Shown here: one piece after another, positions 1,095 through 40,271 of the stretch | How the letters are laid out: every line of letters begins with the position of its first letter | Position numbering within the stretch: the first letter of the stretch is position 1 | Source of the DNA: Verrucomicrobiota bacterium | GTDB lineage: Bacteria > Verrucomicrobiota > Verrucomicrobiia > Opitutales > Puniceicoccaceae | DNA length: 64,000 nt | Reading direction: 5' to 3' | Assembly: GCA_038744685.1 (NCBI GenBank) | Contig: JBCDMB010000001.1 | Location: 62,001 to 126,000, forward strand | The notes under the pieces: model-generated | What the model saw: the letters and a program-made list of their open reading frames with translations, nothing else | Databases searched by the model: none | What the model was told of the DNA's origin: nothing | Position numbers and translations under genes: made by a program

Positions 1095-1154
1095 GACTTG
1101 CACATATTTACCAAATAATACATGAAATAGGACCAGGCCCCACGAAGTTACCCC

Positions 1155-3035: not shown

Positions 3036-3059
3036 AACGAAGAGACCAACTCTCCCGCA

Positions 3060-4502: not shown

Positions 4503-4552
4503 GTTCATTTCCCGGTTGAGTAGACCGTAGCCCGGTTTATCCACATTGAGTT

Positions 4553-5758
4553 ATGAATGCATTGATCGTTGGAACGGGCGAATACAGCACTGGATATGTT
4601 GGCGGGGGAGCCAGCCAATCCGATAACGGGGCGGGGGTGGTTGCCTTGAGCCTATTTCATCAGCGTGCCTTGGGTAAGGTCGAGCGGGTTCTAATGGCTG
4701 GAACGAATGGATCAAAGTTTCCCGGTATTCGGGAGCACCTCGACCGAATTCTTGGACAGCGCTATCGGAACCTAAGCACCGAGTTCGAGAGTTTCCCAGC
4801 CGATGATTGCGAGCGGGATCCGAAAGCTTATCTCGGTGCAATGGATCAACTCTCTCCGGGTGACTGCGTTTTCATCTTCACGCCAGACGACCTGCACTTC
4901 GAAATTGGTAGGGCAGCAATTGAGCGCGGCCTGCATGCTCTCATCGCTAAACCTATCGTTCAGACTACGGCTGATCATAGACAATTGATCACGGCCGGTG
5001 ATGCGAAGGGCGTCCTTGTAGTAATGGAGGTCCACAAGCGATGGGACCCGATCTACGTCGATGCCCGCGATAAAATCCGTGAGCTTGGCGATTTCAGTTT
5101 TTTCAACGCCTACATGAGTCAGCCCAAATCGCAGCTAGAGACCTTTCGCGCATGGGCCGGAAAGTCGAGCGACATCAGCTACTACCTAAATGCCCATCAC
5201 ATCGATTTCCACAATTGGGCGATCGGTCATCGCGCTAAGCCTGTGGCGGTCACTGCCCATGGAGCGACTGGTGTGGCGCACGGGAAATGTATTCAAACCG
5301 AGGATACAATCACACTGGCTACGACTTGGAAAAATATCGAGAGCGGCAATCTGGGAACCGCCTTGTATACGTCTTCCTGGATCGCGCCGAAGAGCGATGT
5401 TCACTCGCAGCAGCGCTTCCACTACATGGGGCACGAGGGAGAGATACAGGTCGATCAGGCACATCGCGGTTACCAAATGGCGACCGATGCCGATGGCTAC
5501 AGTTCGCCGAATCCACTCTTCATGAAATACCGCCCCAGTGCCGATGGAGACTTCGTCGGACACACCGGCTATGGTTATCTCAGTATTGAAGCTTTCGTCG
5601 AGGCAGCGAGTTCAGTGAATGTCGGTGAAAGTAAGATCACTGACTGGGACAGCAGACTTGCAACTGCCCGCCAAACACTAGCCGTTACGGCAATCCTCGA
5701 GGCTGGCCGCCGCAGCCTGGATTCGGGTAGCGCAATTGTCCGAATCGAGGATTCATGA
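4553..5758 (+). CDS. Gfo/Idh/MocA family oxidoreductase, cytoplasmic
   Basis: NAD(P)-dependent sugar dehydrogenase-like protein of 401 residues. The Rossmann motif IVGTGE starts at residue 5, directly after the start, so there is no signal peptide and the enzyme should be cytoplasmic, unlike the other oxidoreductases here. The usual EKP motif of the family is AKP (132-134), and a conserved HHIDFHNW segment lies near residue 216. It follows the sulfatases by 50 bp and precedes the GH50 gene by 53 bp, so it is probably in the same operon and acts on an imported sugar derived from the same polysaccharide. The start at 4553 puts the nucleotide-binding motif at its usual place. Substrate unknown. 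Confidence 0.88.
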   Translation: MNALIVGTGEYSTGYVGGGASQSDNGAGVVALSLFHQRALGKVERVLMAGTNGSKFPGIREHLDRILGQRYRNLSTEFESFPADDCERDPKAYLGAMDQLSPGDCVFIFTPDDLHFEIGRAAIERGLHALIAKPIVQTTADHRQLITAGDAKGVLVVMEVHKRWDPIYVDARDKIRELGDFSFFNAYMSQPKSQLETFRAWAGKSSDISYYLNAHHIDFHNWAIGHRAKPVAVTAHGATGVAHGKCIQTEDTITLATTWKNIESGNLGTALYTSSWIAPKSDVHSQQRFHYMGHEGEIQVDQAHRGYQMATDADGYSSPNPLFMKYRPSADGDFVGHTGYGYLSIEAFVEAASSVNVGESKITDWDSRLATARQTLAVTAILEAGRRSLDSGSAIVRIEDS

Positions 5759-5811
5759 AAGCTTACTGAAGTGCCCTTTAGCAAATTCTAGTGCTCTAGG
5801 CCCCTGTTCGA

Positions 5812-8025
5812 ATGTTTGTCCCACTACTCATTACCCTCCGAATCATTCTCGCGATGGTTCCACTGGCAGCTTTTTCGCTGCATGCATCGACTGTATCGCT
5901 TTTTGATTTCGAGGACGCGAAAATACCTTCGGACGCCGAAGTTCAGGGCGTCGAGTTGGAGTTGACAAGAGGGCAGGGCGTCTCGTTGGGAAAGCAGGCT
6001 CTCCTGGTGAACTACCCCAATGAATCACTTTTCAAGAAGGTCTTTTTTGAAACGGAGGAATCTTGGGGTGTGGAGGCATTCGACGCCAGTTCGCTCGCGC
6101 TCGAGATCACCAACCTATCGGAAGACTCGACCCAGTTGTGGATCACTTTGCAGGACGCGAGCCAGAGCGTGACCGGACACATCAATATCGCAGCAGGCTC
6201 GGGTGGGACCTACTACATCGATCTGGATGGCCCGATCCAGAAACTCAACCTTGGGATGACGGGTTGGCCACCCCGTCAGGCACCAGAGGTTGGCGAGAAC
6301 GCGATTCCGTTCCAATATGCATGGGGTGCACGGCAGATAGACGTGAGCACGCTCCAACACATTGGTCTTTACATGAAGGGCAATCTGACGGAGCGGACGC
6401 TCGTCATCGACAACATCCGAATTGTTCCGAACGACAATGGCGACACGGCGGTGTTGAAGGGGTTGGTGAACAAGTATGGTAAGGCCTCACGTCTAAACTG
6501 GCCGACTAAGGTTCACTCCGATGAAGACCTGTTGGCTTACGGAGAAGTGGAGGGGAAAGAATTGGCACAGCCTCGGGCATTCGAGGGGCGTTCCCAGTTT
6601 GGTGGCTGGGCTGATGGCCCGCGTCTTGAAGCAACCGGTTACTTCCGGGTGGAGAAACACGACGGCAAATGGACGCTTATCGATCCAGAGGGTTACTTGT
6701 TCTTCGCAGTAGGGATCGCGAATACGCGTTTCTCCAACACCTACACAGTCACAGGAGTCGACTATGAGTCCCCCCAGGAAAGGAAAGACGAGTTCATCGC
6801 CTCAGATCTACGGCGTGAGCTATTCGAATGGCTTCCGGCGAAAGACGATCCACTTGCCGACCATTATTCCTATGCGGGTTCGATTCATACCGGAGCTCTT
6901 GAGAGGGGACAGACCTTTAGCTTCTATACCGCGAATCTGGAGCGGAAATATGGTGACGATTACGTAGAGAAATGGGTCGACGTCACGCTGAGTCGGATGC
7001 AGAGCTGGGGCTTCACCTGTCTGGGAAATTGGATTGATGACCGGTTTATCGGAAACGGCCGAGTGCCCTATTTTGCCCACGTTTGGATTCGTGGAAATCA
7101 CAAACGAGTCTCGACGGGCAACGACTACTGGGGCCCTATTCATGATCCTTTTGACCCAGAGTTCGTGGAGAGCGTGAGGGAATCCGTCACCGCGGTGACG
7201 GATAAGGTGAAGAACGATCCCTGGTGTATCGGTGTCTTCGCGGATAACGAGATTAGCTGGGGCAATCTCTACGGAGACCTCAACCGGTTTGGCATCGTCA
7301 TCAACACACTAGGACGACCGGTTTCGGAGTCGCCAGCCAAGATGGCATTCGTCGAAATCTTGCGAGCGAAATATGGGTCTATTGATTCATTGAATGATGC
7401 GTGGCAGGCGGACGTGGGGAGTTGGGAGTCGTTTGAGGACGGCTTCTCGCATGAGGGGGCGCTCGAAGGCTCGCGGCTAGAGGATTTTAGTATGCTTTCC
7501 GAAGATCTGGCATCTCAGTATTTCAAGACCGTGCGCGCCGCCGTGAAGGCCGAGATGCCGAATCATCTCTATCTCGGAGCCCGCTTTGCGGACTGGGGGA
7601 TGACACCGGAGGCGGTTCAGGCAGCGGCAAGACATACGGATATCGTGAGCTACAACATGTATACGGAAGGACTTCCCGGGCATTTCGAAGAGTGGCTCGC
7701 GGAGTTGGATCGCCCAAGCATTCTCGGAGAGTTTCATTTTGGCTCGATCGATCGGGGTATGTTTCACGGAGGGATTTGCACGGCGGCGAACCAAGTCGAA
7801 CGCGGAGTGAAGTATACCAATTACGTGCGGTCGGTTTTGGAGAGTCCCTATTTCGTAGGTACACATTGGTTTCAGTACGTTGATTCACCGACGACCGGTC
7901 GCGCCATCGATGGCGAGAATTACAACAGCGGTTTTGTCAGTGTAACCGACACTCCCTATCCCGATTTGATAAACGCTGCCCGCGAGCTCCACGAGGAGCT
8001 TTATGAAATTCGGTTTGGCAATTGA
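5812..8025 (+). CDS. GH50 family beta-agarase-like glycoside hydrolase
   Basis: Secreted glycosidase of 737 residues. A signal peptide (about 1-26) leads into a carbohydrate-binding-like beta-sandwich (about 27-210), then a TIM barrel. The barrel carries FADNEISWG, with Glu480 as the likely acid/base, and GEFHFGSIDRGMFHGG, with Glu640 as the likely nucleophile; the latter is a hallmark of GH50. The layout of a CBM-like domain plus barrel and the length match known GH50 exo-beta-agarases. GH50 enzymes release neoagaro-oligosaccharides from agarose; activity here is inferred from family. It lies downstream of three sulfatases and a sugar oxidoreductase. Its last 25 bp overlap the 3' end of the opposing AraC gene. 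Confidence 0.86.
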   Translation: MFVPLLITLRIILAMVPLAAFSLHASTVSLFDFEDAKIPSDAEVQGVELELTRGQGVSLGKQALLVNYPNESLFKKVFFETEESWGVEAFDASSLALEITNLSEDSTQLWITLQDASQSVTGHINIAAGSGGTYYIDLDGPIQKLNLGMTGWPPRQAPEVGENAIPFQYAWGARQIDVSTLQHIGLYMKGNLTERTLVIDNIRIVPNDNGDTAVLKGLVNKYGKASRLNWPTKVHSDEDLLAYGEVEGKELAQPRAFEGRSQFGGWADGPRLEATGYFRVEKHDGKWTLIDPEGYLFFAVGIANTRFSNTYTVTGVDYESPQERKDEFIASDLRRELFEWLPAKDDPLADHYSYAGSIHTGALERGQTFSFYTANLERKYGDDYVEKWVDVTLSRMQSWGFTCLGNWIDDRFIGNGRVPYFAHVWIRGNHKRVSTGNDYWGPIHDPFDPEFVESVRESVTAVTDKVKNDPWCIGVFADNEISWGNLYGDLNRFGIVINTLGRPVSESPAKMAFVEILRAKYGSIDSLNDAWQADVGSWESFEDGFSHEGALEGSRLEDFSMLSEDLASQYFKTVRAAVKAEMPNHLYLGARFADWGMTPEAVQAAARHTDIVSYNMYTEGLPGHFEEWLAELDRPSILGEFHFGSIDRGMFHGGICTAANQVERGVKYTNYVRSVLESPYFVGTHWFQYVDSPTTGRAIDGENYNSGFVSVTDTPYPDLINAARELHEELYEIRFGN

Positions 8026-8921
8026 ATTTCGGTTCTTCTCGAGTGCCCGACAGTACTACCGAGGCTTTTTCGAAAGGCTTTTGGTGTGCAGCCGTGCTGG
8101 GCTTTGAATCGACGGGAAAAGTAGTTTGGGTCTTTGTAGCCGCAGGCCCATGCAACTTCGGATATTGCAAGGCGATCCTGAGAGAGTAGGCGGCGGGCCT
8201 GAGCCATTCGGAGATTGGTGAGGTATTGGATCGCGGTTTGGCCTACTTCTGCCGAAAAGCGTGCCGAAAGGCTGTCGGCGTTGCAGCGGAGCCGTTTTGC
8301 TGCCTCCTGGAGTGTCAGGTTCTCTGAGCGCATTTCAGCAAAGAAGAGGTCCATGCACTGCGTTACCAATGGCGAGTACTCGCTATCTGATTCAGACGTA
8401 TCCTGCTCGATAATATCCAGAACGAGGCCGAGATAGGAGCAAAGTAAATGCTGCTCAAGGTCGCGATTTCCGCGATGCGCGCATGCCCCTTGTGTGAGTA
8501 GCTCGGCTAGGAGTTCCGAATTTCCGCAGGTGTAGGATTTTAATGGATAGCCCCAGGGTCGGGCTCCGTCAGAGCCTTCCATTTTAAGTGCGACAAAGCG
8601 CTCAGTGTGGTGAACGATCACGAAGGCGGAGAAGTGGTTGCCGCGGACGACTTCTTGGTGAGGGGTAGCTGCAGGCATGATGCAGAGTTCGCCCGGGCCC
8701 AAGTTAAATCTATCATCCCCGCAGGTGAAGCAGTTGTAGCCCACCTGCTGGAAAAAGATTTCAGAAAAGGGATGGTAGGGTGCATCAGTCACCATACTGA
8801 GCCTCTTTTGCTGCATCGGGGCATGAATGGGTGGCAGTTGCTTATTTCGGGTCAACTGCCTGAGAATACCCTTCAACTGATTTAAAGCTGAATCTGAGCG
8901 CTCTTTTTCAGTCGTCCTCAC
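8001..8921 (-). CDS. AraC family transcriptional regulator
   Basis: DNA-binding regulator of 306 residues with an N-terminal cupin-like sensing domain (about 60-130, including LGPGELCIMPAATPHQ) and two C-terminal helix-turn-helix motifs, LTLQEAAKRLRC and ISEVAWACGYKDPNYFSRRF, the second being a standard AraC signature. It converges on the GH50 gene with a 25-bp 3' overlap and is divergent from the oxidoreductase at 9018, with 96 bp between the starts. It probably senses a sugar released by the neighbouring enzymes and controls one or both sides. The start used is GTG at 8921; an ATG about 35 codons further in is a possible alternative, because the first residues are charged and not obviously part of the domain. 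Confidence 0.88.
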   Translation of the reverse strand: MRTTEKERSDSALNQLKGILRQLTRNKQLPPIHAPMQQKRLSMVTDAPYHPFSEIFFQQVGYNCFTCGDDRFNLGPGELCIMPAATPHQEVVRGNHFSAFVIVHHTERFVALKMEGSDGARPWGYPLKSYTCGNSELLAELLTQGACAHRGNRDLEQHLLCSYLGLVLDIIEQDTSESDSEYSPLVTQCMDLFFAEMRSENLTLQEAAKRLRCNADSLSARFSAEVGQTAIQYLTNLRMAQARRLLSQDRLAISEVAWACGYKDPNYFSRRFKAQHGCTPKAFRKSLGSTVGHSRRTEIQLPNRIS

Positions 8922-11905: not shown

Positions 11906-14176
11906 CTATTCGACCCGTGCCAGTTTAGTCAGACGACCCGTTTGGCTCAAGTCTTGGACGTTCAGATTGGCGTCCGCACTATTCGCCCAGTCCGGATCGG
12001 ATCGGTAATGAAAATTCCCGTATCCAGTTACATGACTTTGCCCGGGTGCAGGCGACGTTTCATCGTGAACGTGGCCTTGGTCATGACCGTGATCACCATC
12101 TGGCTTTGCAATTTTCGCAGTTGGGTCGTAGTAGATACGCACCTCGTTGAGACCTCCGCTACCATCGTGCCTGCCATCAACCGGTTTGTGATTGGTAGTT
12201 GCATGAATGCGAATGTAGCGTGCTTTCGTGGGTGGAAACTTGAATGATTCGAAGCGGTAACTCGCTGGTTCCATCTCTTCGATACGTTGCAAGGTTCCTT
12301 TGAGCACTGGAGCGAATTCACTGCCGTCCGAAGACACTTCGATGACAAAGTCCTTAATACCGCGATCAAAATACTGCCGGTTTCGGGTGTTTTGTAAATC
12401 TATTCTGGAGACAGTGTAAGTTTGCTCCAAATCGATCGTCACCTGACCACTATCGCCTGTCTCGGCAATCCAGAAAGACCAGTCGTGCAGTGATCCGGTA
12501 TCAGCGAGACGACCGTCTGTGATGTTCTCCGGTTCGAAAACCTGACCGTTTCGAGGCGAGTTGTAATAGCTCGATGCTGTGACGGGCTTGCCGAATGCGA
12601 GGTTGATAAGGTCGCCCGAACCCGCTGCCCGTACCATCACTGGCTGCTTCTTCTCCGATTCTTCGACTGACGCGGCTTCGAATGAATCCACTTCGTTTAT
12701 TTCGATAAAATCATCGGCCACGATTTCGGTTACCGGTAGTGCGTTACGAAGCCTTTCGACCTGATTGGAACTGAGCCCGGTTTGAGTAACATACAGCTTA
12801 TCGACCTGATTGAGCTGAATTAGTTGGGACACTTCCTCCTCAGTGAGCGGCGTGTTGAACAGATTCAAACTTTCCAATTCTGGAAGTTCTGCTATCCCTG
12901 CGAGTAATTGTGCGTCTACCGTAGTACCTGAAAGGTTGAGGCGTTCAAGGTGCGGGGTCTCTTTGGTGAGTTTTTGTAAAGCGTTCGACGTCACCGCCGT
13001 GTTGGATAGATCCACGTCGATAAGGTAAGGCCCGGCCTTGATGAGTTCTTTGACAGCCTCGTCTGTGAATTGCTCGCGTGCGTTCACCGCAGAAAAGATC
13101 AGTTGCCTACCTTCCGGTCCGACGCGCATGACACTTTTCTCGGCGTATCGCTCGATATCTGCGATCAGTCTCACGAAATCAACGATGGGAAGTGCTGGAA
13201 GCTGCTCGGCTGCGACTTCGACAACCTTGTGAATGTTCTCGATTTTCATGTAGCTGAGTGCCCATTCAAAAAGAGCCTTGGGCAAGGCTTGGTCACTCAG
13301 GTATTGGTCGGGGGATGCACCTGCGAGGATCCATTGGTCGATGAACTCCAATTCCGTCTCGGTAAGTTGTGGTTTTCCTTCCGGTGGCATGCGAAGATCG
13401 TCGTCGATCGGGAGGTGGGCGTAGGTGGAGATCCTACTTGCTTCAAGATCACCCGGGACGAGTGCATTACCATTTCTTCCGCCCGCCAGCAGCGCCTCGT
13501 AGCTATCCATGAGAAGGCCGCCTCGCTTTTTCTTTCCAGTCGAGTGGCAGTCGTAGCACTTTGCTTGAAAAATTCTGTCAACGACTTCGAAGCTCGTGAG
13601 CTCCGCGACGGGTTTTACGTCCTCAATCCGCACCTCTTCAGCAAAGAGAGGCTCCAGTGGGTCTCCATGGGTGATCAAACCGCCCCGGTGTGCTGCTGCC
13701 CACAGAACGATAACACTCGCGAACAAAATGGTGCGGTAGATCGCGGATTGCGTCTTAAAAATGATCGCACCGCAAAACGTAATGATCGCCGCGACCGCGA
13801 AGCCGATGCCCCAGTTGAGGTGCTGGTCGATGAGCTCGCCACTGTAGTCTCCCTGCAGATACAACAGAAGGCCGGCAACGGCCGCGAACACGGCAAAGAC
13901 AGTTCCGAAAGCGAGTATGGGCAAGCTGCCGGGTATTATGAGGCGCTTCGTTAGCCGGCCCGCTAGTAGGTTCCATGCCTCGGCAAACGCGAGGTAAACG
14001 AAAATACCGATGGGCAGGTGAAGGAGGAGCGGATGTAAGTTTCCACCGACCTCTAGGAAGGGCGGAAGCTCATTCAGATGCGTCGATTTCGTCCAGATCG
14101 CAGCGATCAGAAGCAACAGGACGACGAGGGCACTCAGCACGAGGACTGAGTATTTCCATCGATTCTTCTTTAGCAT
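11906..14176 (-). CDS. Membrane cytochrome c protein with leucine-rich repeats and C-terminal discoidin domain
   Basis: Multidomain protein of 756 residues. Residues 9-27 and about 48-165 form roughly five membrane helices of the DUF2231 type (HPLLLHLPIGIF). Next is a Planctomycete-type cytochrome c domain with CYDCH at 207-211 and a likely axial Met in RMPPEGKP (about 262-269). LRR-like units lie at about 385-470 (LERLNLSG, LESLNLFNTPL). An F5/8 type C discoidin domain at about 524-680 (NLAFGKPVTASSYYN to GGLNEVRIYY) is followed by a His/Asp/Gly-rich tail (GDHGHDQGHVHDE). It is the last gene of the five-gene sigma-factor operon, 13 bp after DUF1501. It may anchor a haem-dependent step at the cell envelope; exact job unknown. 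Confidence 0.82.
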   Translation of the reverse strand: MLKKNRWKYSVLVLSALVVLLLLIAAIWTKSTHLNELPPFLEVGGNLHPLLLHLPIGIFVYLAFAEAWNLLAGRLTKRLIIPGSLPILAFGTVFAVFAAVAGLLLYLQGDYSGELIDQHLNWGIGFAVAAIITFCGAIIFKTQSAIYRTILFASVIVLWAAAHRGGLITHGDPLEPLFAEEVRIEDVKPVAELTSFEVVDRIFQAKCYDCHSTGKKKRGGLLMDSYEALLAGGRNGNALVPGDLEASRISTYAHLPIDDDLRMPPEGKPQLTETELEFIDQWILAGASPDQYLSDQALPKALFEWALSYMKIENIHKVVEVAAEQLPALPIVDFVRLIADIERYAEKSVMRVGPEGRQLIFSAVNAREQFTDEAVKELIKAGPYLIDVDLSNTAVTSNALQKLTKETPHLERLNLSGTTVDAQLLAGIAELPELESLNLFNTPLTEEEVSQLIQLNQVDKLYVTQTGLSSNQVERLRNALPVTEIVADDFIEINEVDSFEAASVEESEKKQPVMVRAAGSGDLINLAFGKPVTASSYYNSPRNGQVFEPENITDGRLADTGSLHDWSFWIAETGDSGQVTIDLEQTYTVSRIDLQNTRNRQYFDRGIKDFVIEVSSDGSEFAPVLKGTLQRIEEMEPASYRFESFKFPPTKARYIRIHATTNHKPVDGRHDGSGGLNEVRIYYDPTAKIAKPDGDHGHDQGHVHDETSPAPGQSHVTGYGNFHYRSDPDWANSADANLNVQDLSQTGRLTKLARVE

Positions 14177-14189: not shown

Positions 14190-15611
<1,422 letters not shown>

Positions 15612-15613
15612 GA

Positions 15614-18613
15614 TTAGTAGCGGGTAATGGTTTCGTGAAGATTGAGGAGTGCGCGAGTCAGGCCAGTCCATGCGGCGAGCTCAGTCGTCTCTACCTGGTT
15701 TGAAGATGTAAAGTTTGCAGATGCGACGAGAGCGCTGGCTTCTTCCGGACTTTCCGAAAACCGGCTACGCTCTCGGTCGAGAAACTCCATGAGGATGTCC
15801 TGCTCCCGTGTTTTAGGGTCGCGGGTGAGCACACGCCGGTAGGCATATTCGAGGCGTGAGAGGTCGTCGCCCGGATGATCCAAGAGGATTGCGTGAGAAA
15901 GTGCGATGGCCGCTTCGACGAAGCTTGGGTCGTTCAGCTTGTTGAGGGCTTGAAGTGGTGTGTTCGATATGGGACGTGCGACCGCGCATTCGTCGCGACT
16001 TGGTGCGTCGAAGGCGATGAGCATTGGATGTAGGAAGGTGCGTTGCCAATGCATGTAGAGTCCGCGGCGATACTGATCTTCGCCTGTGCTGGTCTCGTAA
16101 GTGCGCTTTGGAAAATTGAGGTGTTGGTAGTATCCATCCGGTTGATACGGTTTGGCACTAGATCCGCCGATTCGGCGAACGAGCAGGTCCGATATGGCAA
16201 GTGCGTTGTCGCGAATATTCTCAGCCCGAAGCCGCCGTGGGCTTTGCCGTGCGATGAGTCGGTTATAGGGATCCAATTCGTCAAGCTCGGGAGTCGATCT
16301 GCTGCTTTGGCGGTAGGCTTCCGACATGAGAATCGATTTAACGAGCTGTTTCACGTCCCATCCGGACTCCATAAAATCGGAAGCGAGGAGCTCTAAAAGT
16401 TCCGGGTATACTGGATACTCGCCTTGCAAGCCAAGGTCCTCTGGAGCACTGGATATAGGGGTGCCGAAAAAGTGTCCCCAGACTCGATTTACATAGGTGC
16501 GGGCGGTAAGAGGATTGTCTCGATGCACGATCCATTCGGCAAGATCGAGTCTTGAGAGTCGCTCTCCCGGATCTGAAGCAATGGCAAAGTCGAGGAACTC
16601 GGGCGTCGCCGGAAGAACGACTGCGCCACTTTCATCTGTCCAGTCGCCCCTGGGAAGCACTCTAACCTCTCTCGGCTTGGCGCTGATCGTCGCTGGGGTA
16701 TTCCGGGTGCCGTTGAGGTAATCGTTCATCGCGCGATAAGAGTTGCGCAATTCGATTTGGTCGGGGCTGGCGGCATGCGCTTCGTAATAGATCACTCGAA
16801 GCCGTTCTAAATCGGCGTCGATGGCTTCGTTTGTCAGATACTTTTCGAGTAGTGTAACCCCTTCCTTTTTAAGGTCTCCAATGGGGACTTTTTGGCGCTT
16901 GGTTTTGAGTCGAAAGTTGCGCACATCAACTGCGTTGCCATCGATTGTGGTCTCACTTGAGACGAAGCTTATCGATTTCGGTGATTTTCCTCGATGGGTT
17001 TTAAGTGAGTCCGGGTAGATGTAGAGCTCGGTCCATGTATCGGCCTTCGGAAGGTCCGACCGGTTTATTAGTTTTCGATGCGGCTTCTTTTCGTTCACCC
17101 CATTGCCCCAATAAACAAGATACTCGGTATCTTCGAAGCTGTAGAGTATCCCGAATCCATGCTTTTCGCCTTCCGCGATTTCATTTAGCCGAACCTCAAA
17201 TTGGTAGCGGTAGCCGTTCTCGACTTTTAGAGGGGCACCAATGAAGGAGACCGCAGAATCGTTCGTCAAATCCGTCAAATAGTAGTCGGCCGGTATGCCG
17301 GCAGCGGCGGCTTTTCGTTTCTCAGTCAGCCAGTTTTCGAATTCTCTCGCAGCAGTGTCAGTTCCGGAACGAAGAGAATTCAGCCGCCTTTGGTTCTCGG
17401 CTTCGTAATGCTCAGGATTCTGCAGGAAGGTTCGATTCGGCACACGCATCGTAGGCCCGAAACGTCTCTGCTCAAAGATTTCGGGTGGTGCCAGATATTC
17501 GCTCACGTCTTTCTCCTGGTAGCTACCATCTCCTGTGTTCGCTCCTTTTTCCAATATATCGGCAAAGAAGGCGCCGAATGAATAGAAGTCTTTTGCCGTG
17601 AAGGGATCGTATTTGTGGTCGTGGCATTCGGCACACGCCAAAGTCGATCCCAACAGAGCCGTTGAAGTCGTGCGGATGCGTTCGGCCTGATACTTCTTAA
17701 TGTATTCCTTGTCCTGAATGCCGCCCTCGCTACTGATTTGATTGAGGCGGTTAAAACTCGCGGCTACGCGTTGCTGGATCGTCGCATTGGGAAGGAGATC
17801 CCCAGCTAACTGTTCGGTGACGAATTCGTCATAGGGCTTGTTAGTGTTGAAGGCATTGATCACGTAGTCGCGAAACGGTGAGGCATCCCGTGATTGGTCG
17901 CCGTGGTAGCCGACTGTATCGGCAAAACGCACCGCATCGAGCCAATCGATCGCCATGTTCTCGCCGAAGTGAGGCGAGGCGAGTAACTCATCGACTAGTG
18001 CCTCGTATGCGTTTGGTGACTGGTTGCCTAGAAACTTATTAGCCTCTTCAGGGGTTGGAGGTAACCCGATCGTGTCCAAGTAGACACGTCGAACGAGAGT
18101 TTCGGCCGGAGCTTCCTTCGAAAATCCGAGTCCCCGCCTTTTAAGTCCGCTCTTCAAAATCGCATCGATACTGTCGAGCTCAGGTCTTTCAACACGCTTA
18201 TAGGACCAATGGATTTCGTATTCTGCGCCTTGGTCTATCCAAGCGGCAAGGGTGCGGATTTGCTCCTCTGAAAGTGGCTTGTGAACCTCAGGTGGAGGCA
18301 TGATATCGAACTCATCATCCGTTGAGACTCGCTCAATTGCCAGACTCGCGCCCGCGTTGCCCGGTACAATGGCCCCTGATTCAATAGCGAGTTCACGAAT
18401 ATCGAGGCGCAGATCTGCCTTGTTGTTCTCTACATCGGGTCCATGGCAGAAGTAGCAGTGGTTCGAGAGGATAGGACGAACATCCCTATTGAAATCAATT
18501 TTCTCAGGGTCCGCTGCGGCACCGACAAAAGTCCAGATCGTCGAGCTTAGAGCCGTTAGCGACGCGTAAACCAGTACTCTGGGCGAGGTGAGCGCGCCTT
18601 TTAGGGGTGACAT
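15614..18613 (-). CDS. PSCyt1-DUF1549-DUF1553 (PSD1) domain protein
   Basis: Large exported protein of 999 residues. After a signal peptide (about 1-33) comes a Planctomycete cytochrome c domain with CYFCH at 53-57, then DUF1549, which includes a second haem-type motif CAECHDHKYDPF, a central beta-sandwich insertion around SFIGAPLKVENGYRYQFE, and a C-terminal DUF1553 domain (NPLTARTYVNRVWGHFFG, PSRDECAVARPISNTPLQAL). This combination nearly always sits beside DUF1501 in Planctomycetes and Verrucomicrobia, as here. The pair is commonly thought to work on polysaccharides or their products with electron transfer, but no reaction is established. It starts 57 bp after the anti-sigma factor gene. 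Confidence 0.92.
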   Translation of the reverse strand: MSPLKGALTSPRVLVYASLTALSSTIWTFVGAAADPEKIDFNRDVRPILSNHCYFCHGPDVENNKADLRLDIRELAIESGAIVPGNAGASLAIERVSTDDEFDIMPPPEVHKPLSEEQIRTLAAWIDQGAEYEIHWSYKRVERPELDSIDAILKSGLKRRGLGFSKEAPAETLVRRVYLDTIGLPPTPEEANKFLGNQSPNAYEALVDELLASPHFGENMAIDWLDAVRFADTVGYHGDQSRDASPFRDYVINAFNTNKPYDEFVTEQLAGDLLPNATIQQRVAASFNRLNQISSEGGIQDKEYIKKYQAERIRTTSTALLGSTLACAECHDHKYDPFTAKDFYSFGAFFADILEKGANTGDGSYQEKDVSEYLAPPEIFEQRRFGPTMRVPNRTFLQNPEHYEAENQRRLNSLRSGTDTAAREFENWLTEKRKAAAAGIPADYYLTDLTNDSAVSFIGAPLKVENGYRYQFEVRLNEIAEGEKHGFGILYSFEDTEYLVYWGNGVNEKKPHRKLINRSDLPKADTWTELYIYPDSLKTHRGKSPKSISFVSSETTIDGNAVDVRNFRLKTKRQKVPIGDLKKEGVTLLEKYLTNEAIDADLERLRVIYYEAHAASPDQIELRNSYRAMNDYLNGTRNTPATISAKPREVRVLPRGDWTDESGAVVLPATPEFLDFAIASDPGERLSRLDLAEWIVHRDNPLTARTYVNRVWGHFFGTPISSAPEDLGLQGEYPVYPELLELLASDFMESGWDVKQLVKSILMSEAYRQSSRSTPELDELDPYNRLIARQSPRRLRAENIRDNALAISDLLVRRIGGSSAKPYQPDGYYQHLNFPKRTYETSTGEDQYRRGLYMHWQRTFLHPMLIAFDAPSRDECAVARPISNTPLQALNKLNDPSFVEAAIALSHAILLDHPGDDLSRLEYAYRRVLTRDPKTREQDILMEFLDRERSRFSESPEEASALVASANFTSSNQVETTELAAWTGLTRALLNLHETITRY

Positions 18614-18670
18614 GCTTATTCATACCAAAAGCGATGCTTATGTGACAGGATTTCGGCAATTTACTGGAAA

Positions 18671-20008
18671 CTACTCGAAGACCCTGACTTCGTTGAGGCC
18701 TGCTCCTCCCATGTGGTTGTCGTTGTAGGCTGGGTAGTAGCTGAGTCCTCTGATTCTGACATAGCGAGCCGGTGTGCTCTCAAACTCGAACGATTCAAAT
18801 TTGTAATAACTCAAATCATGCCATTCGATCTGGTCCAGTGTGCCCTTTTTGACCTGTAGGAAGTCCTCTCCATCGATCGATGTTTCGATGACAAAATCTT
18901 TCATTCCCCGATTAAAATACTGGCGATTGCGAGTGTTTTGAATCTCGACCCGGGATATGTCGTAACTGTCGAGAAGGTCGATTGTCGCGATTCCCGTATC
19001 ACCATCGTTTGCTAACCAGAAAGCCCAATCCCAAGGTGAACCTGAGTCTGCAAACCGATTGTCCGTCAATCCGTCCGGGCCGAATACAGAACCAATTTTT
19101 GGGTTGTTATAATAGCTCGAAACCGTTGCAGGTTTTCCGAGAGCCAGGTTCTCGTTTCGCTTTAGATGCCCTTCGTCGTCGGCAAGGTTGAATAATCCAG
19201 AGACCCTTACCGATTCTCCATCGATCTCCGAAACCATGTCTTTAGCTTGGCTGTTTCCGAGGATCGCAAAGGCGTTTCCCTCAGTCACGCTTACGGGTGA
19301 TCTCATTTCACTTTTGTAAACTACTTCTCCCTCATAGACTTCAGCCATCACCATAGAGTCCGTAACTCCGTTCCCGATTTTGACACCGAATTTGGTGCCC
19401 ATGTCCACCAATTCCCCAAGGGGGGTGATGACCTTGAAGGTCCCCGGATCCCCTTGATGATCCACTGTGATCGTTCCGGATGAAACCTTGATGGATCCAT
19501 TGTCTTGGATCTGATAGAAGGCCGGGCCTTCGATAATTGTCTTCGTATTGCTTGGGAATTGAAGGGCGACCGCGCCACTCATGAGTAGCGTCATTTGAGT
19601 GTTTGCCCGATCTCCAACTTCAATACTCGGACCTCGGATATCCGCATCGCGGATTGCGATATACACAACCTCCAGTTCGGGGTCCTTCTTGACGAGTGAA
19701 AAGATAAACAAGCCAAAGCACATCATGGCGGCGATGCCTGCGAACCAGGTGAGGCTTCGTTCTTTGCGAACGCCTTGAGTAGGCGACGTCCGTTGTGCAA
19801 AAACCGGGGCAATAGTTTTAGTATTCCGATCCGGGTACTTTGCATGGTTGCTGAGGCTTAAGTGAACCTCAACTAGATGTTGATAGAGATCTCGATAGTC
19901 GGCGTTCTTCTCGAGCAGTTTCTCGAGCTCGGCGAACTCGCTTTCGGAAATCTCCTCGTCGAGATACTTCCAGACTAGGTTCTCAAAATGGGAGGATTGT
20001 TTGCTCAT
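18671..20008 (-). CDS. FecR-type anti-sigma factor with extracytoplasmic discoidin domain
   Basis: Single-pass membrane protein of 445 residues. Residues 1-60 form a helical cytoplasmic part with the LDEEISESEFAELEKLLE pattern typical of FecR-like anti-sigma factors of Planctomycetes and Verrucomicrobia. A single membrane helix follows at about 86-106 (SLTWFAGIAAMMCFGLFIFS), then a FecR domain at about 135-250 (TPLGELVDMGTKFGV, VYEGEV), and finally an F5/8 type C discoidin domain at about 287-445 (NLALGKPATVSSYYNNP to GAGLNEVRVFE). It lies 12 bp after the ECF sigma factor gene, so it is the probable regulator of that factor. No TonB receptor is adjacent; the discoidin domain is the obvious ligand-sensing candidate. 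Confidence 0.88.
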   Translation of the reverse strand: MSKQSSHFENLVWKYLDEEISESEFAELEKLLEKNADYRDLYQHLVEVHLSLSNHAKYPDRNTKTIAPVFAQRTSPTQGVRKERSLTWFAGIAAMMCFGLFIFSLVKKDPELEVVYIAIRDADIRGPSIEVGDRANTQMTLLMSGAVALQFPSNTKTIIEGPAFYQIQDNGSIKVSSGTITVDHQGDPGTFKVITPLGELVDMGTKFGVKIGNGVTDSMVMAEVYEGEVVYKSEMRSPVSVTEGNAFAILGNSQAKDMVSEIDGESVRVSGLFNLADDEGHLKRNENLALGKPATVSSYYNNPKIGSVFGPDGLTDNRFADSGSPWDWAFWLANDGDTGIATIDLLDSYDISRVEIQNTRNRQYFNRGMKDFVIETSIDGEDFLQVKKGTLDQIEWHDLSYYKFESFEFESTPARYVRIRGLSYYPAYNDNHMGGAGLNEVRVFE

Positions 20009-20020
20009 CGACTGTTCGGG

Positions 20021-20557
20021 TTACGTAGTTTGTAAGCGACTTTGGATACAAATTGAGAGCTTTGATCGAAGACGTCGGAGATTCTGGGATAGCGTGTTGG
20101 GGTTCAGTCCTATTTGTTTGGCGATTTCTTCAACACTATATTTTCCAGCGTAACGTTGTATGAGTGCGTTTCGTTTATCGGTGTCCATTTTTTCAAGGCA
20201 GTGGTTGAGCGCTTCCTGGAGTTGCGCCTCTGAGGTGAAGTTTGGTTCGTTGAGTGCCAACTGATCTATGAGCTCGTCACTGAACGTCAGTCGTTTCCTT
20301 TCACGCGACTGATCCCGGAAATGTGCTTTCGTTTGAAAGTAGGCGACACGGAAAGCCCACTTGAGAAAAAGGGTATTTGGATCCCAATCCATGCGCTTCT
20401 TCCAAAGTATGACGTTTGTTTCCTGTAGAACGTCTTGGGCAGCGTGATGATTACCGACCAACTTGAGAATGTAGGCGCGCAGAGGAGTCTGTGCGTCCGA
20501 AATCTCAGCGACAAAGGCTTCATCTAGAAAATCGGCTGATTTTTGATTGAACTCCAC
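20021..20557 (-). CDS. ECF RNA polymerase sigma factor (Planctomycete/Verrucomicrobia type)
   Basis: Sigma factor of 178 residues. Region 2 contains the helix [20 protein letters not shown] and [17 protein letters not shown]; region 4 contains [20 protein letters not shown] followed by [11 protein letters not shown], a helix-turn-helix for the -35 element. The start is GTG at 20557; no suitable ATG lies near the beginning of region 2. It is first in a minus-strand operon with the FecR-discoidin anti-sigma factor and three envelope proteins, so it probably directs transcription of this operon and perhaps the divergent gene at 20695. No target promoter could be assigned by eye. Confidence 0.92.
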
Positions 20558-20694
20558 CTTCGAGAATACCGGATCTGCAGGATTTATGACAAGGGAACTG
20601 AGAAATTTCCTAGGATTTGAAGCCGAAATTTTGTGCTGGAGTATTTAATCCACGAAAATACTTTTCATGTGTAAAGTAAACCCCGGAAAAAACC

Positions 20695-22251: not shown

Positions 22252-23949
22252 GTGAATCCACAGGAAAGATATCCGTCGAGGCAGATTGTTTCACTCGATG
22301 GCCTGTGGGATTTCGCAAGAACGGATCCCAAGAAAGATATTGATTCGCTCGATCTACGATCGGTTCAGTTCGAGGAGACGATTAACGTTCCTGGATGCTT
22401 CGATATGCTACCCAGCTTGATTGGATGGCGAGGTGGCGTTCTCTATCGCCGAAAGATTAAGGTACCGCCGGGTGCGCGGGCTCGTCTGTGTTTCGGAGGC
22501 CTTTCGATTTGGGGCAAGGTGTTTGCCGATGGCGTTAAAGTAGGGGATCAGCGTAAACCTTACTCCACGTTTTGTTGCGATCTTCCAGTCAGTGAACGGG
22601 AGGAGAGGAGTCTCGTTGTATACGTGGATAACCGTTTCGATGGCGAGCGTTGCCCGTTGGTTCAGCCTTACCATGACTACTACCTTTACGGTGGAATCAT
22701 CCGAAGCGTCTCGCTGCAGCTTTTGCCAGAGTCTTTCGTCGAGAATATCCGGGTTTTTGCGACGGATTACGAAAGTGGACGAGTCAAGGTGACCGTTTCT
22801 GTTGCTGGAAAACGGCCGGAAAGGAATAAGATATTCTACGCCTTTGATGACGCACAAATCGAGTCGGTTGACAGCGAGATGACCGATGGAATTTTGTCTT
22901 TTGAGGCGACAGTTCCGAGATTCAAAGTCTGGTCACCTGACAGTCCAAACTTGCATACGCTTCGGCTCATTTTCGGCCCCGACGAGAGTAATGTCTCATT
23001 CGGAATTCGTAGAGTTGAGACAAAGGAAAATCAGATTGTTTTGAATGGATCGTCGATAAAGTTGCTTGGGGTGAATCGGCATGAGGCGCATCCGACCTTT
23101 GGTGCTGCGGTGCCACTCCAGCAGCAGATCGCTGACCTTCAACTCTTGAAGGACCTGGGCTGCAATTTTATTCGTGGAAGTCACTATCCGCAGGACGAGG
23201 ACTTTCTTGAGCTATGCGACCGAATGGGTTTTCTGGTCTGGGAGGAGTCTGTTGGCTGGGGCCAAACGGCAGAGCATTTTCGAAATGAAGACTACTGCAA
23301 TTTAAACTTGGCGCAGACACGGGAGATGATAGAAGGGCATTGGAACCACCCGTGCATCATTATGTGGGGTTTCCAAAATGAGTCCGAGAGTCATCTCGAT
23401 TCGGCGGACTCGCACTATAACGACCTACTCACTCTTTGCAGGGATCTGGACGATTCGCGGCTGGTCGTTTCTGCGACTAACAAAGGGATGCAGGACCGTT
23501 TCCTCGATCAGGTAGACGTCGTCTGTCTCAACCTATACCCGGGTTGGTATTCTCCGGCCGATGACTTTCGCCCGGATCGAATCGATGCAATTGTTCCAGA
23601 AATCAGAGAAATGATTCAGAAGATCCATGCACAAGGCAGAAACGATCGTCCCTTTGTCATCAGCGAAATTGGCGCCGGGGCAATCTATGGTTTCCGTGAT
23701 CCGATTTGTGGGATGTGGACCGAGGAATACCAGGCCGAATACCTCAGTCAGGTTTGCGAAGAGATCCTTGAAAATGATGACGTTGCCGGCGTTGGCCTTT
23801 GGCAGTTTTGTGATTGCCGAACTTACAATGGTTGTGAAGCGCTTAAGCGGCCTCGATCATTCAACAACAAAGGCAATCTGGATGAATACCGCCGTCCGAA
23901 ATTGGCTTACCCAGCGGTAAAACGGATTTGGAATCCAGATCCTTCTTAA
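22252..23949 (+). CDS. GH2 family glycoside hydrolase, cytoplasmic
   Basis: Glycosidase of 565 residues with the GH2 layout: jelly-roll N-domain (about 10-165, SLDGLWDF), Ig-like middle domain (about 166-255), and a TIM barrel with the GVNRHEAHP motif at about 273. Glu377 in MWGFQNESES is the likely acid/base and Glu472 in SEIGAGA the likely nucleophile. There is no signal peptide, so it should act in the cytoplasm on imported oligosaccharides. The start is GTG at 22252, supported by a strong ribosome site (GGAGGGGAGG) about 8 bp upstream. It is shorter than LacZ-type enzymes and closer in size to beta-galactosidase/beta-glucuronidase-like GH2 members. Galactosidase action on red-algal oligosaccharides is inferred from the GH50 and GH86 genes. 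Confidence 0.88.
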   Translation: MNPQERYPSRQIVSLDGLWDFARTDPKKDIDSLDLRSVQFEETINVPGCFDMLPSLIGWRGGVLYRRKIKVPPGARARLCFGGLSIWGKVFADGVKVGDQRKPYSTFCCDLPVSEREERSLVVYVDNRFDGERCPLVQPYHDYYLYGGIIRSVSLQLLPESFVENIRVFATDYESGRVKVTVSVAGKRPERNKIFYAFDDAQIESVDSEMTDGILSFEATVPRFKVWSPDSPNLHTLRLIFGPDESNVSFGIRRVETKENQIVLNGSSIKLLGVNRHEAHPTFGAAVPLQQQIADLQLLKDLGCNFIRGSHYPQDEDFLELCDRMGFLVWEESVGWGQTAEHFRNEDYCNLNLAQTREMIEGHWNHPCIIMWGFQNESESHLDSADSHYNDLLTLCRDLDDSRLVVSATNKGMQDRFLDQVDVVCLNLYPGWYSPADDFRPDRIDAIVPEIREMIQKIHAQGRNDRPFVISEIGAGAIYGFRDPICGMWTEEYQAEYLSQVCEEILENDDVAGVGLWQFCDCRTYNGCEALKRPRSFNNKGNLDEYRRPKLAYPAVKRIWNPDPS

Positions 23950-23959
23950 GGGCCCTTAA
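23946..23959. repeat. 14-bp perfect palindrome at the end of the GH2 gene
   Basis: TTAAGGGCCCTTAA overlaps the TAA stop of the GH2 gene and lies 18 bp before the next start codon. It could be a protein-binding site or chance; without a loop or T-run it is not a standard terminator. Confidence 0.4.
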
Positions 23960-23977
23960 ACCACCCACTCAATTACT

Positions 23978-25579
23978 ATGAAAGATACCCGTTTTCTCAT
24001 CTGCCTAGGTTGGCGAAGATCCTTATTCGCCATCAGCTTTCTTTTCGGATTTTCGATGCTATCCGGCGACGATCGACCAAACATTGTTTTCATCCTCGCT
24101 GACGATGTTGGGTTGGGAGACGTGAGCTTTTATCGGGAGAATTTTATGGAAAGTGAACCCGTTCTGGAGACACCTTCGATCGATCGACTGGCCGAGGGTG
24201 GTATGTGGTTTACGGATGGTCATTCCTCGACGGCCCTCTGTGCACCCACTCGGTATGCGATCATGAGTGGGAAAAACAACTACCGATCTGTCGCGCCCTG
24301 GGGTGTGTGGAACTCATTTCTCGAAGGAGCGATTGAGCCTGGGGATACCACGCTTGGAACAGTTGCCAGGGACGGGGGTTACGCTACTGGCTTTGTCGGT
24401 AAGTGGCACCTCGGATTGAATTTTGAAAAGCTGAACGGTCGCGGTTACTTCCGTGGAAACGATCGGAGTGAGAACGTAATCAATGCCGACATGACTAGGA
24501 TTGCCTACGGGGGTCCAAAGGATATGGGTTTTGACTACAGCTATGCACTCCCAACGGGTATTCAAGGGCCACTTTATTTAGCTTACGAAAATGAAGAGTG
24601 GGCGCCGTTTCACCCGGATTCCGAGATCATTGCCTACAACAGCGAGAACGCGCGCGACCCTGAGACCATAACCCAAGAGGACCTTGATGAGGTTGGCGTG
24701 GTTGGAAACATGACCATCTCAGACAAGGGTCCGGGAATGGGAGACTCTCACTGGGATTCCTCAAAAATGGGCGAAATATTGTCAACCAAGGCCGCGGACT
24801 TCATCGATGCCAACGCAGGGAAGCAGCCGTTCTTTCTCTACTACTGCAGTCCGCATCCTCATCGGCCGCATATGCCTCCGGTCGAGCTGCACGGCGAAAA
24901 GGTTCTCCGCACATTACCGTCGCGGCACCTCGAAATGATGAAGGTGCTTGATCTTGAAGTCGGACACATTGTCGAGGCGCTGGAGCGAAATGATGTCCTG
25001 GATAACACATTGATCGTTTTTTCTGCAGACAATGGCGGCCTCACTTGGAAGGTCCCAGGGACGATGGAGTCAGGTCATCGGCCGAGCGGCAGATTCCGTG
25101 GCGCGAAAAGTGCGCCGCACGAAGGTGGGCATCGAGTGCCCTTCATCGCTCACTGGCCAGACAAGATCGAACCCGGTCAACTGAACGATGAGCTCGTAGT
25201 TACCCATGACATGTTGGCCACGGTGGCGAGTATTGCGGGGACTGAGGTTGAGGACCAAGATACACTCGACTCGATGAACCTGCTCCCGATTTTAGAGGGA
25301 CAAACGGATTTCAACGGTCGTGACTTCATGCTGATGCAAGCAGGTGCTGGATTTGAAGTGATTTACCGTGAAGGACCATGGAAACTGATCATTCAAAGTA
25401 ACCATAGGCTCGATAAGTGGGAGCCAATTGCCTTGTTTAATTTGGAAACAAACCTGTCCGAGAAGGAGGGGCAGAATTACATCAACCACCCCGAGTATCG
25501 GAGGAAGGTCGAGTCAATGTTTGCAAAGTATATGGATATGCGGAAGAGCGGCGTCCGCACTGCGCCCGTCAATCGATAG
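23978..25579 (+). CDS. Secreted sulfatase
   Basis: Cys-type sulfatase of 533 residues with a signal peptide (about 1-30, preceded by a longer N-terminal region with WRR). Active-site features: ADDVGLGD with Asp42 and Asp43, activation motif CAPTR with Cys88 (Thr in place of the more common Ser, still within the CxPxR rule), GKWHLG, YCSPHPHRPH and SADNGG. It starts 28 bp after the GH2 stop and is likely co-transcribed with it. It differs from the sulfatases at 1155 and 3060, so the window holds several sulfatase subgroups, which would suit a polymer sulfated at several positions. Its 3' end faces the SSS transporter gene with a 19-bp gap. Confidence 0.93.
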   Translation: MKDTRFLICLGWRRSLFAISFLFGFSMLSGDDRPNIVFILADDVGLGDVSFYRENFMESEPVLETPSIDRLAEGGMWFTDGHSSTALCAPTRYAIMSGKNNYRSVAPWGVWNSFLEGAIEPGDTTLGTVARDGGYATGFVGKWHLGLNFEKLNGRGYFRGNDRSENVINADMTRIAYGGPKDMGFDYSYALPTGIQGPLYLAYENEEWAPFHPDSEIIAYNSENARDPETITQEDLDEVGVVGNMTISDKGPGMGDSHWDSSKMGEILSTKAADFIDANAGKQPFFLYYCSPHPHRPHMPPVELHGEKVLRTLPSRHLEMMKVLDLEVGHIVEALERNDVLDNTLIVFSADNGGLTWKVPGTMESGHRPSGRFRGAKSAPHEGGHRVPFIAHWPDKIEPGQLNDELVVTHDMLATVASIAGTEVEDQDTLDSMNLLPILEGQTDFNGRDFMLMQAGAGFEVIYREGPWKLIIQSNHRLDKWEPIALFNLETNLSEKEGQNYINHPEYRRKVESMFAKYMDMRKSGVRTAPVNR

Positions 25580-29948: not shown

Positions 29949-32900
29949 TCACTCCCTTAGGAGATCGATGGTGACGAAGAGAGAATCGGTTTCCGTAGGG
30001 AGCGAGATGGTCACCAGTTCAAATTCGGCGTTTTCAGGGTAGACTTGAACTGGGCCAGTGTAGGGAGTCCAATTCGCGTTTAGATCGGTAGTGGTCTGAA
30101 CGTTGTAGGTGAGTCCGTTACCGTCATCAATGCGGCGGCGAAACTGAAACTCGATTTCAGAAGGATCGCCGGGTGTTGGAAAAACTATTCTAGGGGGTAT
30201 CCCGAAATCACCGGGGATCTTGGGGTTTCCGCCGAAGGCAAATTCAAAAATATTGAGCAAACGGTCTTTGTCGTCATCACCGAGTTCACCTTCGATGAGT
30301 TGAAAGTCTATTTCGAAACGGGCGAAGCCGAGTAGAGGAGAGGCTTGAAGTGACACGGTATCGACGATTACCCCAGTGAGGCCTGAGCTATTGGCTCCAG
30401 GATTAATCGTTTGGTAGAAGAGGTAAGCCCCGTTTCCGAGCAAGGCTTCGTATACATTGGCGGAGATTCCGGTGACGGTTCCGGTGCCGGTATCGGTACC
30501 ATCGGTAAGGTTTTGAAGGCGAACGTCGTACGTAGTTGTAGCAGCATCTGCGCCGAGAGTAAGTTCATAGTGCAAGCGTAGGTCTTCGCCCTCGTTGGGA
30601 GCATTGCTGAGCGTGCTGGTCCCGTTGATCACCGAGAAGTTGTTGAGTAGCCGATAGTTGGTGTTGCCGCCAAAGAGTTGAATGTTGACGTCCGGCTCGT
30701 CGGTTCCGGCGTTGTTACTTGTGTTTTCCGGCGTCGCGGTCGCTTTGAGCCCGGTTAGAAACGCATAAGCGAAGCCTGCAGGGCTACTGTAGTTTCCCGA
30801 GAACTCAAAGTTTATTGTGTAGCTGAAAGTGTCTCCAACTCGGAGAATGATGGGAAGGTCGAGGACAGCGATATTGGTGTTTGTAGTGGTAGCAACGGTT
30901 CCTGAACCGGCGTTGGTGACGACCCAGTCAGACTCGGCATTCCATGATTCCTGCCCGTTGAGTTCACCGTCGGCGAAGGGTGCGGTATATTCAATGACCG
31001 TCTGAGAGGAGAGATCGGGGATTTCTGCGGAGTAGGCGATCATGTTGACTCTTACTCCGTTAAGCCCCGAGCCGTTTGCAGCAAAGTTGAGGCTTTGGAA
31101 AAAGAGATAAGCACCGCTTCCAGTCAGCGCATCGAAGACGTCAGTCATGATTCCGGTGACCGTGCCCGTTCCGGAATCGGTGTCATCGGTCATGTTCTGG
31201 AGTTGAACGTTGTAGGTCGTGCTTCCAGCGGAGCTGCCAAGCGTAATGTCATAGCGGATACGGAGCTGATCACCCGGATTAGGCTCCCCCGTTAGATTGC
31301 TGATTCCGGGTATCCCGCTAAAGTTGCTGAGCAGGCGATAGGCCGCAGAGGATGAGAAGATTTGGAGGTTAGCGTCGGGTTCGTCACTCGCCGTGTTCAA
31401 GCTTGTTGCATCCGAAGTCGCTTTGAGTCCTGTAAGAAACGCATAGACGAAGTTACTCGGCGTCGTGAAGTTGCCGGTAAACTCAAAATCGACGACATAG
31501 CTAAAGGTCTCGCCTTCATTCAAGGTGATCGGGCGATTGAGGACTGCAATCTCGCCGCTTGCACTAGTCTCGGTCGAGCCATTGGAATCCGGGTCGACCG
31601 TCCAACCAGCTTCAGCGTTCCAATTCACTTGGCCGTTTAAGCCACCGCTGGTGAGCGGAGTCGTGAACTCGATGAATCGCCCAGTGATGTCAACATCTGG
31701 TCGCAGATATAGGGTGATTTCGTCGCTATCGGTGTTGGATTGACTATCCGTGGCGGTAAGGCGAAAGACATAGGCCCCAACGATGAGTGAGGATAGGTTG
31801 AGGGTTGCGGTTGTTTCGCCAGAAAGAACTGCATCGTTGGGTCCGGACACTTGTGTCCACTGGTAGGTAGAAACCGGATTCGCGCTGGTAACTTCGCTGG
31901 AGAGAGTGACGGAACTGATAGGGGTTAGATAGCTTGCGTCACGACCGACGTTTACCTCGATTGCAGGGGTCGGCGGGACGACTCCGTCACTGGAGCTGAG
32001 TTCAAGCTGGCGCCAGCGTCCACGGGCAAAGGCGAATCCATCGCCTTCTGGAATCAGGCCATTTGAATCCGTAGCCGATTCCACTGCGATGGTGTTTCCT
32101 GGTTGCAAAGGGATGCCCGTCCAGCGGTGCACGAAGGGTTGTAAGTCTCCTGTGTTATCGACCTGCGGATTCTGAAAGGTGCGAACGACGGATCCGTTAA
32201 CCAGAAGACGGTAGACACTCTCGCCGTCTTCTTCGGTAATGGTGGTGATGTCTACGTCGTAGACTCCAGGAGCACCGTTAAAGATCAGCGCAGCACGGGC
32301 GAATTTCCCGCGCTTGTCCTCATCGCTCGCATCAATGGCGAGAAAGTCGCTGGCAGAATTTGCGTTGTAAATCGTTCGACCGTCGACTGCCGGCTGGATG
32401 GTAAAGTCTGTTACTGCGTTATAGATGATGGTCGTCTCTGTAGTTTCTGGAGTGTTCTCGAAAGTTGACTGGTTGTAGGGCACGTCGTCGTGGTAAACGG
32501 TGATGCGGTCGATGGCGTGACCCGACGAGCGTCCAGCGATTTGGATTTGGTGAGCCCCGGCCTCGTAGAAGATCTTCGGGTTGTTTACAAAGCGGGCGGG
32601 TCCTCCCTGAACTTCAAAAGCGGCGTTGTAGGACCAGTTTTGTTGGCTTTGGACAAAGGCCTTTGTGAACTTCGTGACCGCGAACTGTCCGTTCCCGTCG
32701 CGTTCGTCATTAAGCAAAGGGGTTCCAGTCTCAAATTTTACATAACTGTCGTTGCCCGCGTCTGGACGTTCGACGCTCGAATATTGCTTGGTGCGCCAGC
32801 GGAAGGTGTAGTTACCTGGTTTTCGGATCTCGAAGTTGTAGATGTTGATATCGTCCACCTGATTGTCCTCTTTGGTGATCCCGCCATTGAAGGGGCCGGT

Positions 32901-34916: not shown

Positions 34917-35157
34917 AAGGGGTTGGGGTTAGACAGAGATTGGAGCGTCTCGAATCATACCAAATTATACAAATCAAAATTTTGGGGATCCAGTGTCAGA
35001 GTCTTGTCTGAACGCAGCTTGAATGCGACTGAATATACAGGTTCTTCGGCTATCTTATGGCTAGATTATTCAGGGTTTGGGATATGATATCCTCCGAATC
35101 TCCCTCATTTCATGATTCCACTGAAGTACGGATCTTGAGTGCCGATTCCGAAGACAG

Positions 35158-40099: not shown

Positions 40100-40271
40100 C
40101 ATTCTGAGTGGTGAATGTGAATGGTCGTAGGCGGCTTTCTTTCCGAAGAACTTCGGTGGCATAGCGAATGAAGTATCGTGATTCACAACGCTAGGCATTT
40201 CAAAGGGATTGGGAAGAGTAAGGGAAGACGATGCTTGATTTTCTTTGCGGGTTTTGTTGGTTGACGGTGCT

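Follow-up and report, generated by a model that had tools for sequence, protein, structure and literature searches.

FecR-type anti-sigma factors are known from the FecI-FecR-FecA system of Escherichia coli and from PupR and FoxR of Pseudomonas, in which the gene adjoins that of an ECF sigma factor (PMC7186176, PMC8144685). PupR has a CJM subdomain first and then an STN subdomain at residues 250 to 324 (PMC7186176). Self-cleavage is reported at Gly181-Thr182 of E. coli FecR (PMC8144685), a pair called nonconserved among sigma regulators in one source (PMC7186176). A second design is RsgI/SigI of Clostridium thermocellum, where RsgI combines an extracytoplasmic domain that cleaves itself with carbohydrate-binding domains that can be exchanged at the C terminus; its sensors include CBM3, CBM42, PA14, and others (PMC12203970). 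In Rhodopirellula baltica, a suggestion has been made that the ECF gene RB10049 controls the PSD1/PSC2 protein RB10051 (Studholme et al., cited in PMC2754498); it came with no description of the sensor and no mention of a discoidin anti-sigma factor. F5_F8_type_C is listed as a protein-protein domain in PSCyt proteins by He et al. 2017 (PMC5615132). A suggested link between an ECF sigma factor and PSD1 in Rhodopirellula, and F5/8 C domains in PSCyt proteins, are thus already on record. We present here a sigma/anti-sigma switch that resembles both designs, from a marine verrucomicrobial bacterium.

The window is the whole 64,000-nucleotide stretch of DNA that was analysed, and all coordinates refer to it. 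An earlier sequence-only reading had proposed an ECF sigma factor gene paired with a gene for an anti-sigma factor with FecR and discoidin domains. Profiles, fold matches, and a gap of 12 bp between the two minus-strand genes confirmed the pair. Its features are as follows.

20021..20557, minus strand: ECF sigma factor gene (178 aa, GTG start; TIGR02989, Sigma70_r2, Sigma70_r4_2)
18671..20008, minus strand: FecR-type anti-sigma factor with a C-terminal discoidin/CBM32 domain (445 aa; PF04773 and PF00754; AlphaFold2 model with fold matches)
19829..20008, minus strand: cytoplasmic anti-sigma helix bundle, residues 1 to 60 (three predicted helices; weak RsiW profile match)
19691..19753, minus strand: membrane helix, residues about 86 to 106 (predicted from hydropathy; helix 86 to 103 in the model)
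19157..19609, minus strand: FecR/CJM periplasmic beta domain, residues about 134 to 284 (fold match to PupR 6ovk and to 4m0n)
19394..19399, minus strand: Gly204-Thr205, aligned with E. coli FecR Gly181-Thr182 (invariant across the fusion alignments)
18674..19150, minus strand: discoidin/CBM32 domain, residues 287 to 445, at the predicted place of the STN subdomain (PF00754; CBM32 matches by profile and fold)

The sigma factor scored 131.6 bits against TIGR02989, the Rhodopirellula/Verrucomicrobium family (cut-off, 124.6). In the anti-sigma factor, the FecR domain scored 27.2 bits against PF04773 (cut-off, 24), and the C terminus scored 40 bits against F5_F8_type_C, PF00754 (cut-off, 28.2). The helices of the N-terminal bundle lie at residues 6 to 57, most of them predicted at pLDDT 79 to 92, and by profile the bundle weakly resembles the anti-sigma domain of RsiW (E value, 0.33). 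A single membrane helix is predicted, with a hydropathy of 1.9 to 2.2 over 19 residues. The model thus gives the protein the cytoplasmic helices and one membrane helix of FecR-type anti-sigma factors.

Structure prediction of the fusion bore out the proposed domain order. The AlphaFold2 model, built from 14 relatives, has a mean pLDDT of 73, with a poorly predicted loop at residues 300 to 320. Its FecR/CJM domain (residues 134 to 286 in the fold match) resembles the FecR-type domains of solved anti-sigma factors, PupR 6ovk (residues 111 to 251; Z score, 14.1) and 4m0n (Z score, 14.8). The following domain (about 285 to 445) matches CBM32/discoidin folds with Z scores up to 14.4 (12 to 14 for CBM32). 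The PupR match ends at PupR residue 251, and the discoidin domain comes next in the anti-sigma factor; in the model it takes up the position of STN, the PupR subdomain to which the TonB receptor binds. A hidden STN or FecR_C domain in the anti-sigma factor was considered and rejected, as neither gave a Pfam match. The sequence-only reading had put the discoidin domain outside the cell. Verrucomicrobiota have an outer membrane, so an inner-membrane protein of FecR type would place the domain in the periplasm and not outside the cell.

The aligned Gly-Thr pair suggests that the anti-sigma factor keeps this site where FecR-type proteins self-cleave; the pair is part of a motif common to the FecR domain, and cleavage here is putative. 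S2P-type and S41 proteases, which are found in most bacteria, are present in the genome.

The absence of a TonB receptor from the locus, noted earlier from the window alone, extends to its surroundings. The three TonB receptors of the genome all lie on contigs other than that of the switch, and none is linked to it. No STN domain scored above the cut-off anywhere in the genome. The genome encodes two FecR proteins, one of the sensor type; the second has no sensor domain after it and no sigma gene within the stretch read. A standing linkage of the fusion to a TonB receptor was looked for in the relatives and was never found. A similarity search found no relatives of the three receptors in the flanks of discoidin-type loci, and the nearest receptor among the matches listed lies 59 to 636 kb from the locus in the seven relatives with coordinates.

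Whole genomes and a named genome collection were searched for ECF-FecR-discoidin fusions in other Verrucomicrobiota, as the first reading had proposed. The full fusion was found at 23 loci, all in Verrucomicrobiota. Two of these (L046 and L062) are the same record, which leaves 22 distinct loci; several relatives come from metagenome assemblies that hardly differ from one another, which puts the count of independent cases below 22. Identity to the window is 51% in Rubritalea marina, 49% in a genome of the same order, and 42% in Pelagicoccus mobilis; Luteolibacter, Haloferula, and many Akkermansiaceae/Verrucomicrobiaceae genomes carry the fusion at 29 to 36%. By tblastn and profile searches, the sigma gene is directly upstream at every one of the 23 loci, overlapping by 4 bases in most. 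The next gene encodes a PSCyt1/PSCyt2/PSD1 protein at 21 of the 23 (20 of the 22 distinct), usually followed by a DUF1501 gene. The fusion is not a product of chance, since the whole architecture recurs in 22 distinct loci. The two exceptions are L041, where a FAD oxidoreductase follows the discoidin anti-sigma factor in the place of PSD1 (L041:9777-12773), and L064, where a FecR anti-sigma factor with two tandem discoidin domains and an upstream sigma gene is found on a contig that ends soon after (L064:9968-11920). The commonest neighbor family in the flanks of discoidin-type loci is DUF3500 (4 of 84 proteins).

The same arrangement is found in the window, where the switch is followed by these features.

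15614..18613, minus strand: PSCyt1-PSCyt2-PSD1 protein (999 aa, two CxxCH motifs; PF07635, PF07583, PF07587)
14190..15671, minus strand: DUF1501 protein (PF07394, 522 bits), overlapping the PSD1 gene
11906..14176, minus strand: membrane protein of 756 aa that combines a PSCyt1 heme domain and a leucine-rich stretch with a discoidin domain at its C terminus (PF07635, PF00754)
12131..12604, minus strand: second discoidin domain, within the last operon gene (55% identical to the anti-sigma discoidin domain)

PSD1 is a single gene in the genome; the structure model of an insert in its product has a mean pLDDT of 54 and is too poor for use. The last gene matches PF07635 and PF00754 above cut-off, with a weak DUF2231 match and a CYDCH motif.

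The sequence-only reading took the pair for a polysaccharide sensor. Extended to the surrounding island, this would make agar or porphyran fragments the ligand of the discoidin domain, and sulfatases, GH2, and agarase-like genes nearby would be turned on by the sigma factor. The window is indeed rich in sulfatases and encodes an Agarase_CBM protein, a porphyranase C-terminal domain, and GH2; the discoidin domain has a CBM32-type fold, and a sulfatase adjoins the operon in Pelagicoccus mobilis and L021. The conserved target speaks against this. The partners that recur are PSD1 and DUF1501, and in other genomes the operon does not lie among polysaccharide genes (sulfatases make up 2 of 84 neighboring proteins). 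The upstream motif described below is restricted to the operon across the genomes searched, and three AraC-type regulators are encoded in the island itself (8001-8921, 40245-41135, and 51540-52520), which more likely control the polysaccharide genes than the sigma factor does. We therefore regard control of these genes by the switch as unlikely. The island itself spans window positions 1-8025, 22252-25579, 29949-36894, and 60075-62438 and encodes five sulfatases and proteins with Agarase_CBM, GH2, DUF5060/PKD, and porphyranase C-terminal domains.

Control of the operon by the switch is the reading we prefer, and it is consistent with motifs upstream of the sigma and PSD1 genes. Akkermansiaceae-type loci carry a two-part motif, GWAAGATT-N12-GGTAA, at fixed spacing just before the sigma start. 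It occurs in 12 of 13 genomes with 14 matches (0 for the reversed control), 12 of them at the operon; the remaining two fall within reading frames elsewhere, and the motif is close to unique in each genome. Two further loci have the motif with one base changed, and one extra site appeared when three mismatches were allowed (three genomes). Loci of the window's own group have a different box, represented in the window as follows.

20585..20590, minus strand: putative -10 element (GTCATA box), located 33 bases upstream of the sigma start
20605..20610, minus strand: GGAAAT, possible -35 element, upstream of the putative -10 GTCATA
18641..18646, minus strand: GTCACA, a related box before the PSD1 gene (inexact and weak match to GTCATA)

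GTCATA is present in 6 of the 7 regions upstream of sigma or PSD1 in this group, at 33 to 40 bases before the start in 4 of the 6. In shuffled sequences, some hexamer reached this frequency in 0.05% of cases, GTCATA in none. An exact GTCATA lies before the PSD1 gene of Rubritalea L050 and that of L021; the PSD1 gene of the window has GTCACA alone. These motifs suggest putative promoters recognized by the sigma factor itself and a regulon that hardly extends beyond the operon. Because the genome holds one PSD1 gene and one sensor-type anti-sigma factor, the regulon is likely the switch's own operon rather than the neighboring agar/porphyran genes. About 20 relatives have this switch at the head of the same small operon, which probably reflects direct sensing and control of that operon only.

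The nature of the ligand was approached through the discoidin domain. It is related to CBM32 domains of glycan-active enzymes by profile and fold (hexosaminidase 6q63; profile E value, 1.7e-7), and its fold matches also include neuropilin and factor VIII. Discoidin domains bind protein and lipid ligands as well as sugars. The one close relative of the anti-sigma discoidin domain in the genome is that of the last operon gene, which the sequence-only reading of the pair left unmentioned. In the discoidin tree, both last-gene copies (window and Rubritalea) group with sensors of the same lineage (support, 97/96); the order within that group is unsettled, and the Rubritalea copy is on a long branch. 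The residues invariant among the sensors, W328, F330, W331, N358, T359, N361, R362, and R367 among them, are kept in both last-gene copies. Nothing else speaks as strongly for a ligand common to sensor and target as these conserved residues, and the discoidin domain of the cytochrome probably meets the same ligand as that of the anti-sigma factor.

The matching domains within the operon, together with the strict linkage to PSD1, could also fit a feedback sensor, in which the discoidin domain touches PSD1 or the cytochrome and reports assembly of a complex rather than a glycan; the placing of F5_F8_type_C among the protein-protein domains of PSCyt proteins by He et al. (PMC5615132) points the same way. 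However, a discoidin domain in the last gene was found in the window and Rubritalea marina only: the last gene of L021 lacks a matching one, and the last gene was not found at most loci. The CBM32 relatives, moreover, bind sugars. We accordingly give feedback sensing little credence. Highly doubtful is a general envelope-stress switch with the discoidin domain as a mere anchor to the cell wall or envelope. Expression of the R. baltica ECF gene RB10049 does rise under heat, cold, and salt stress (PMC2754498), but the discoidin residues conserved here, also in the second copy, suggest a specific surface, and the small motif set suggests a narrow regulon.

On balance, we favor by a modest degree a sigma/anti-sigma switch that works independently of TonB and serves the operon in which it is encoded, with a glycan-type ligand most likely. 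The helix bundle of the anti-sigma factor would bind the sigma factor and hold it at the inner membrane. The discoidin/CBM32 domain, plausibly a direct sensor, would meet a periplasmic ligand, for which a glycan or an envelope component that bears glycans is the likeliest candidate, and binding may expose the anti-sigma factor to proteolysis. The freed sigma factor would then transcribe its own operon from the putative promoters: sigma, anti-sigma, PSCyt1/PSCyt2/PSD1, DUF1501, and, in the window, also the membrane cytochrome.

The fusion belongs to a wider set of FecR proteins. Among 88 loci with FecR relatives, the sigma gene adjoins in 86 and LamG is present in 44. FecR-LamG anti-sigma factors of Planctomycetota and Verrucomicrobiota have the same sigma family and FecR part as the switch and differ in their lectin-like LamG C terminus. 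Other FecR relatives have NPCBM or PA14 domains, and L091 has another, weaker discoidin-like domain. L109, L129, L066, and L069 include FecR proteins that end in NPCBM or PA14 and two whose weak matches to GDSL-like lipases stay under the cut-off. The anti-sigma gene is followed by PSD1 at 21 of 23 discoidin-type loci versus 8 of 44 LamG-type loci (P = 6e-9, an optimistic value given relatedness and short contigs). Across the superphylum the FecR-plus-lectin design is the rule; the discoidin type forms a single branch of it, linked to PSD1. The first reading's sensor of a different make-up thus stands in part: the switch has a discoidin domain instead of a TonB receptor or STN subdomain, but the FecR-plus-lectin combination is usual in the group. 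No paper on a FecR-LamG or FecR-discoidin anti-sigma factor was found in a literature search that was thin on subscription journals.

Domain copying from sensor to target was considered as a general rule and rejected. Sharing of domains between sensor and target showed a nominal association (3/8 versus 0/21; P = 0.015), which is not evidence of copying because the LamG domains of the targets are unlike those of the adjacent FecR proteins.

The switch is real and conserved, not an isolated fusion, and is a variant of known designs; its regulation is putative. Tentatively, and at somewhat less than even confidence, we propose a TonB-independent FecR class, widespread in Planctomycetota and Verrucomicrobiota, in which the docking subdomain was repeatedly replaced by LamG, discoidin/CBM32, NPCBM, or PA14, a Gram-negative counterpart of RsgI, with the discoidin branch sensing for the PSD1/DUF1501 operon through a ligand-binding domain common to sensor and target. 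If true, FecR-type signaling can do without a TonB receptor, the sensor being a domain swapped onto the anti-sigma factor, and an RsgI-like design exists in outer-membrane bacteria. It would also give a first handle on the PSCyt/PSD1/DUF1501 operons, which have many copies in planctomycetes and an enigmatic role, and the discoidin ligand would give a clue to the target of their action. With so narrow an upstream motif, a reporter assay is simple.

Compared with known systems, the switch shares with FecR, PupR, and FoxR the predicted cytoplasmic helices, one membrane helix, the FecR/CJM beta domain, and the aligned Gly-Thr pair. Unlike them, it has no STN subdomain and no linked TonB transducer, and a discoidin/CBM32 domain follows CJM. 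Membership in the RsgI family was considered and rejected: a C-terminal carbohydrate-binding-type domain is present, and the RsgI periplasmic domain and SigI are absent. The switch is not an RsgI because its sigma factor is different, an ECF factor of TIGR02989, and so is its middle domain, of FecR type in place of the RsgI periplasmic domain. Unlike that of RsgI, its sensor domain is presumably periplasmic, in an outer-membrane bacterium.
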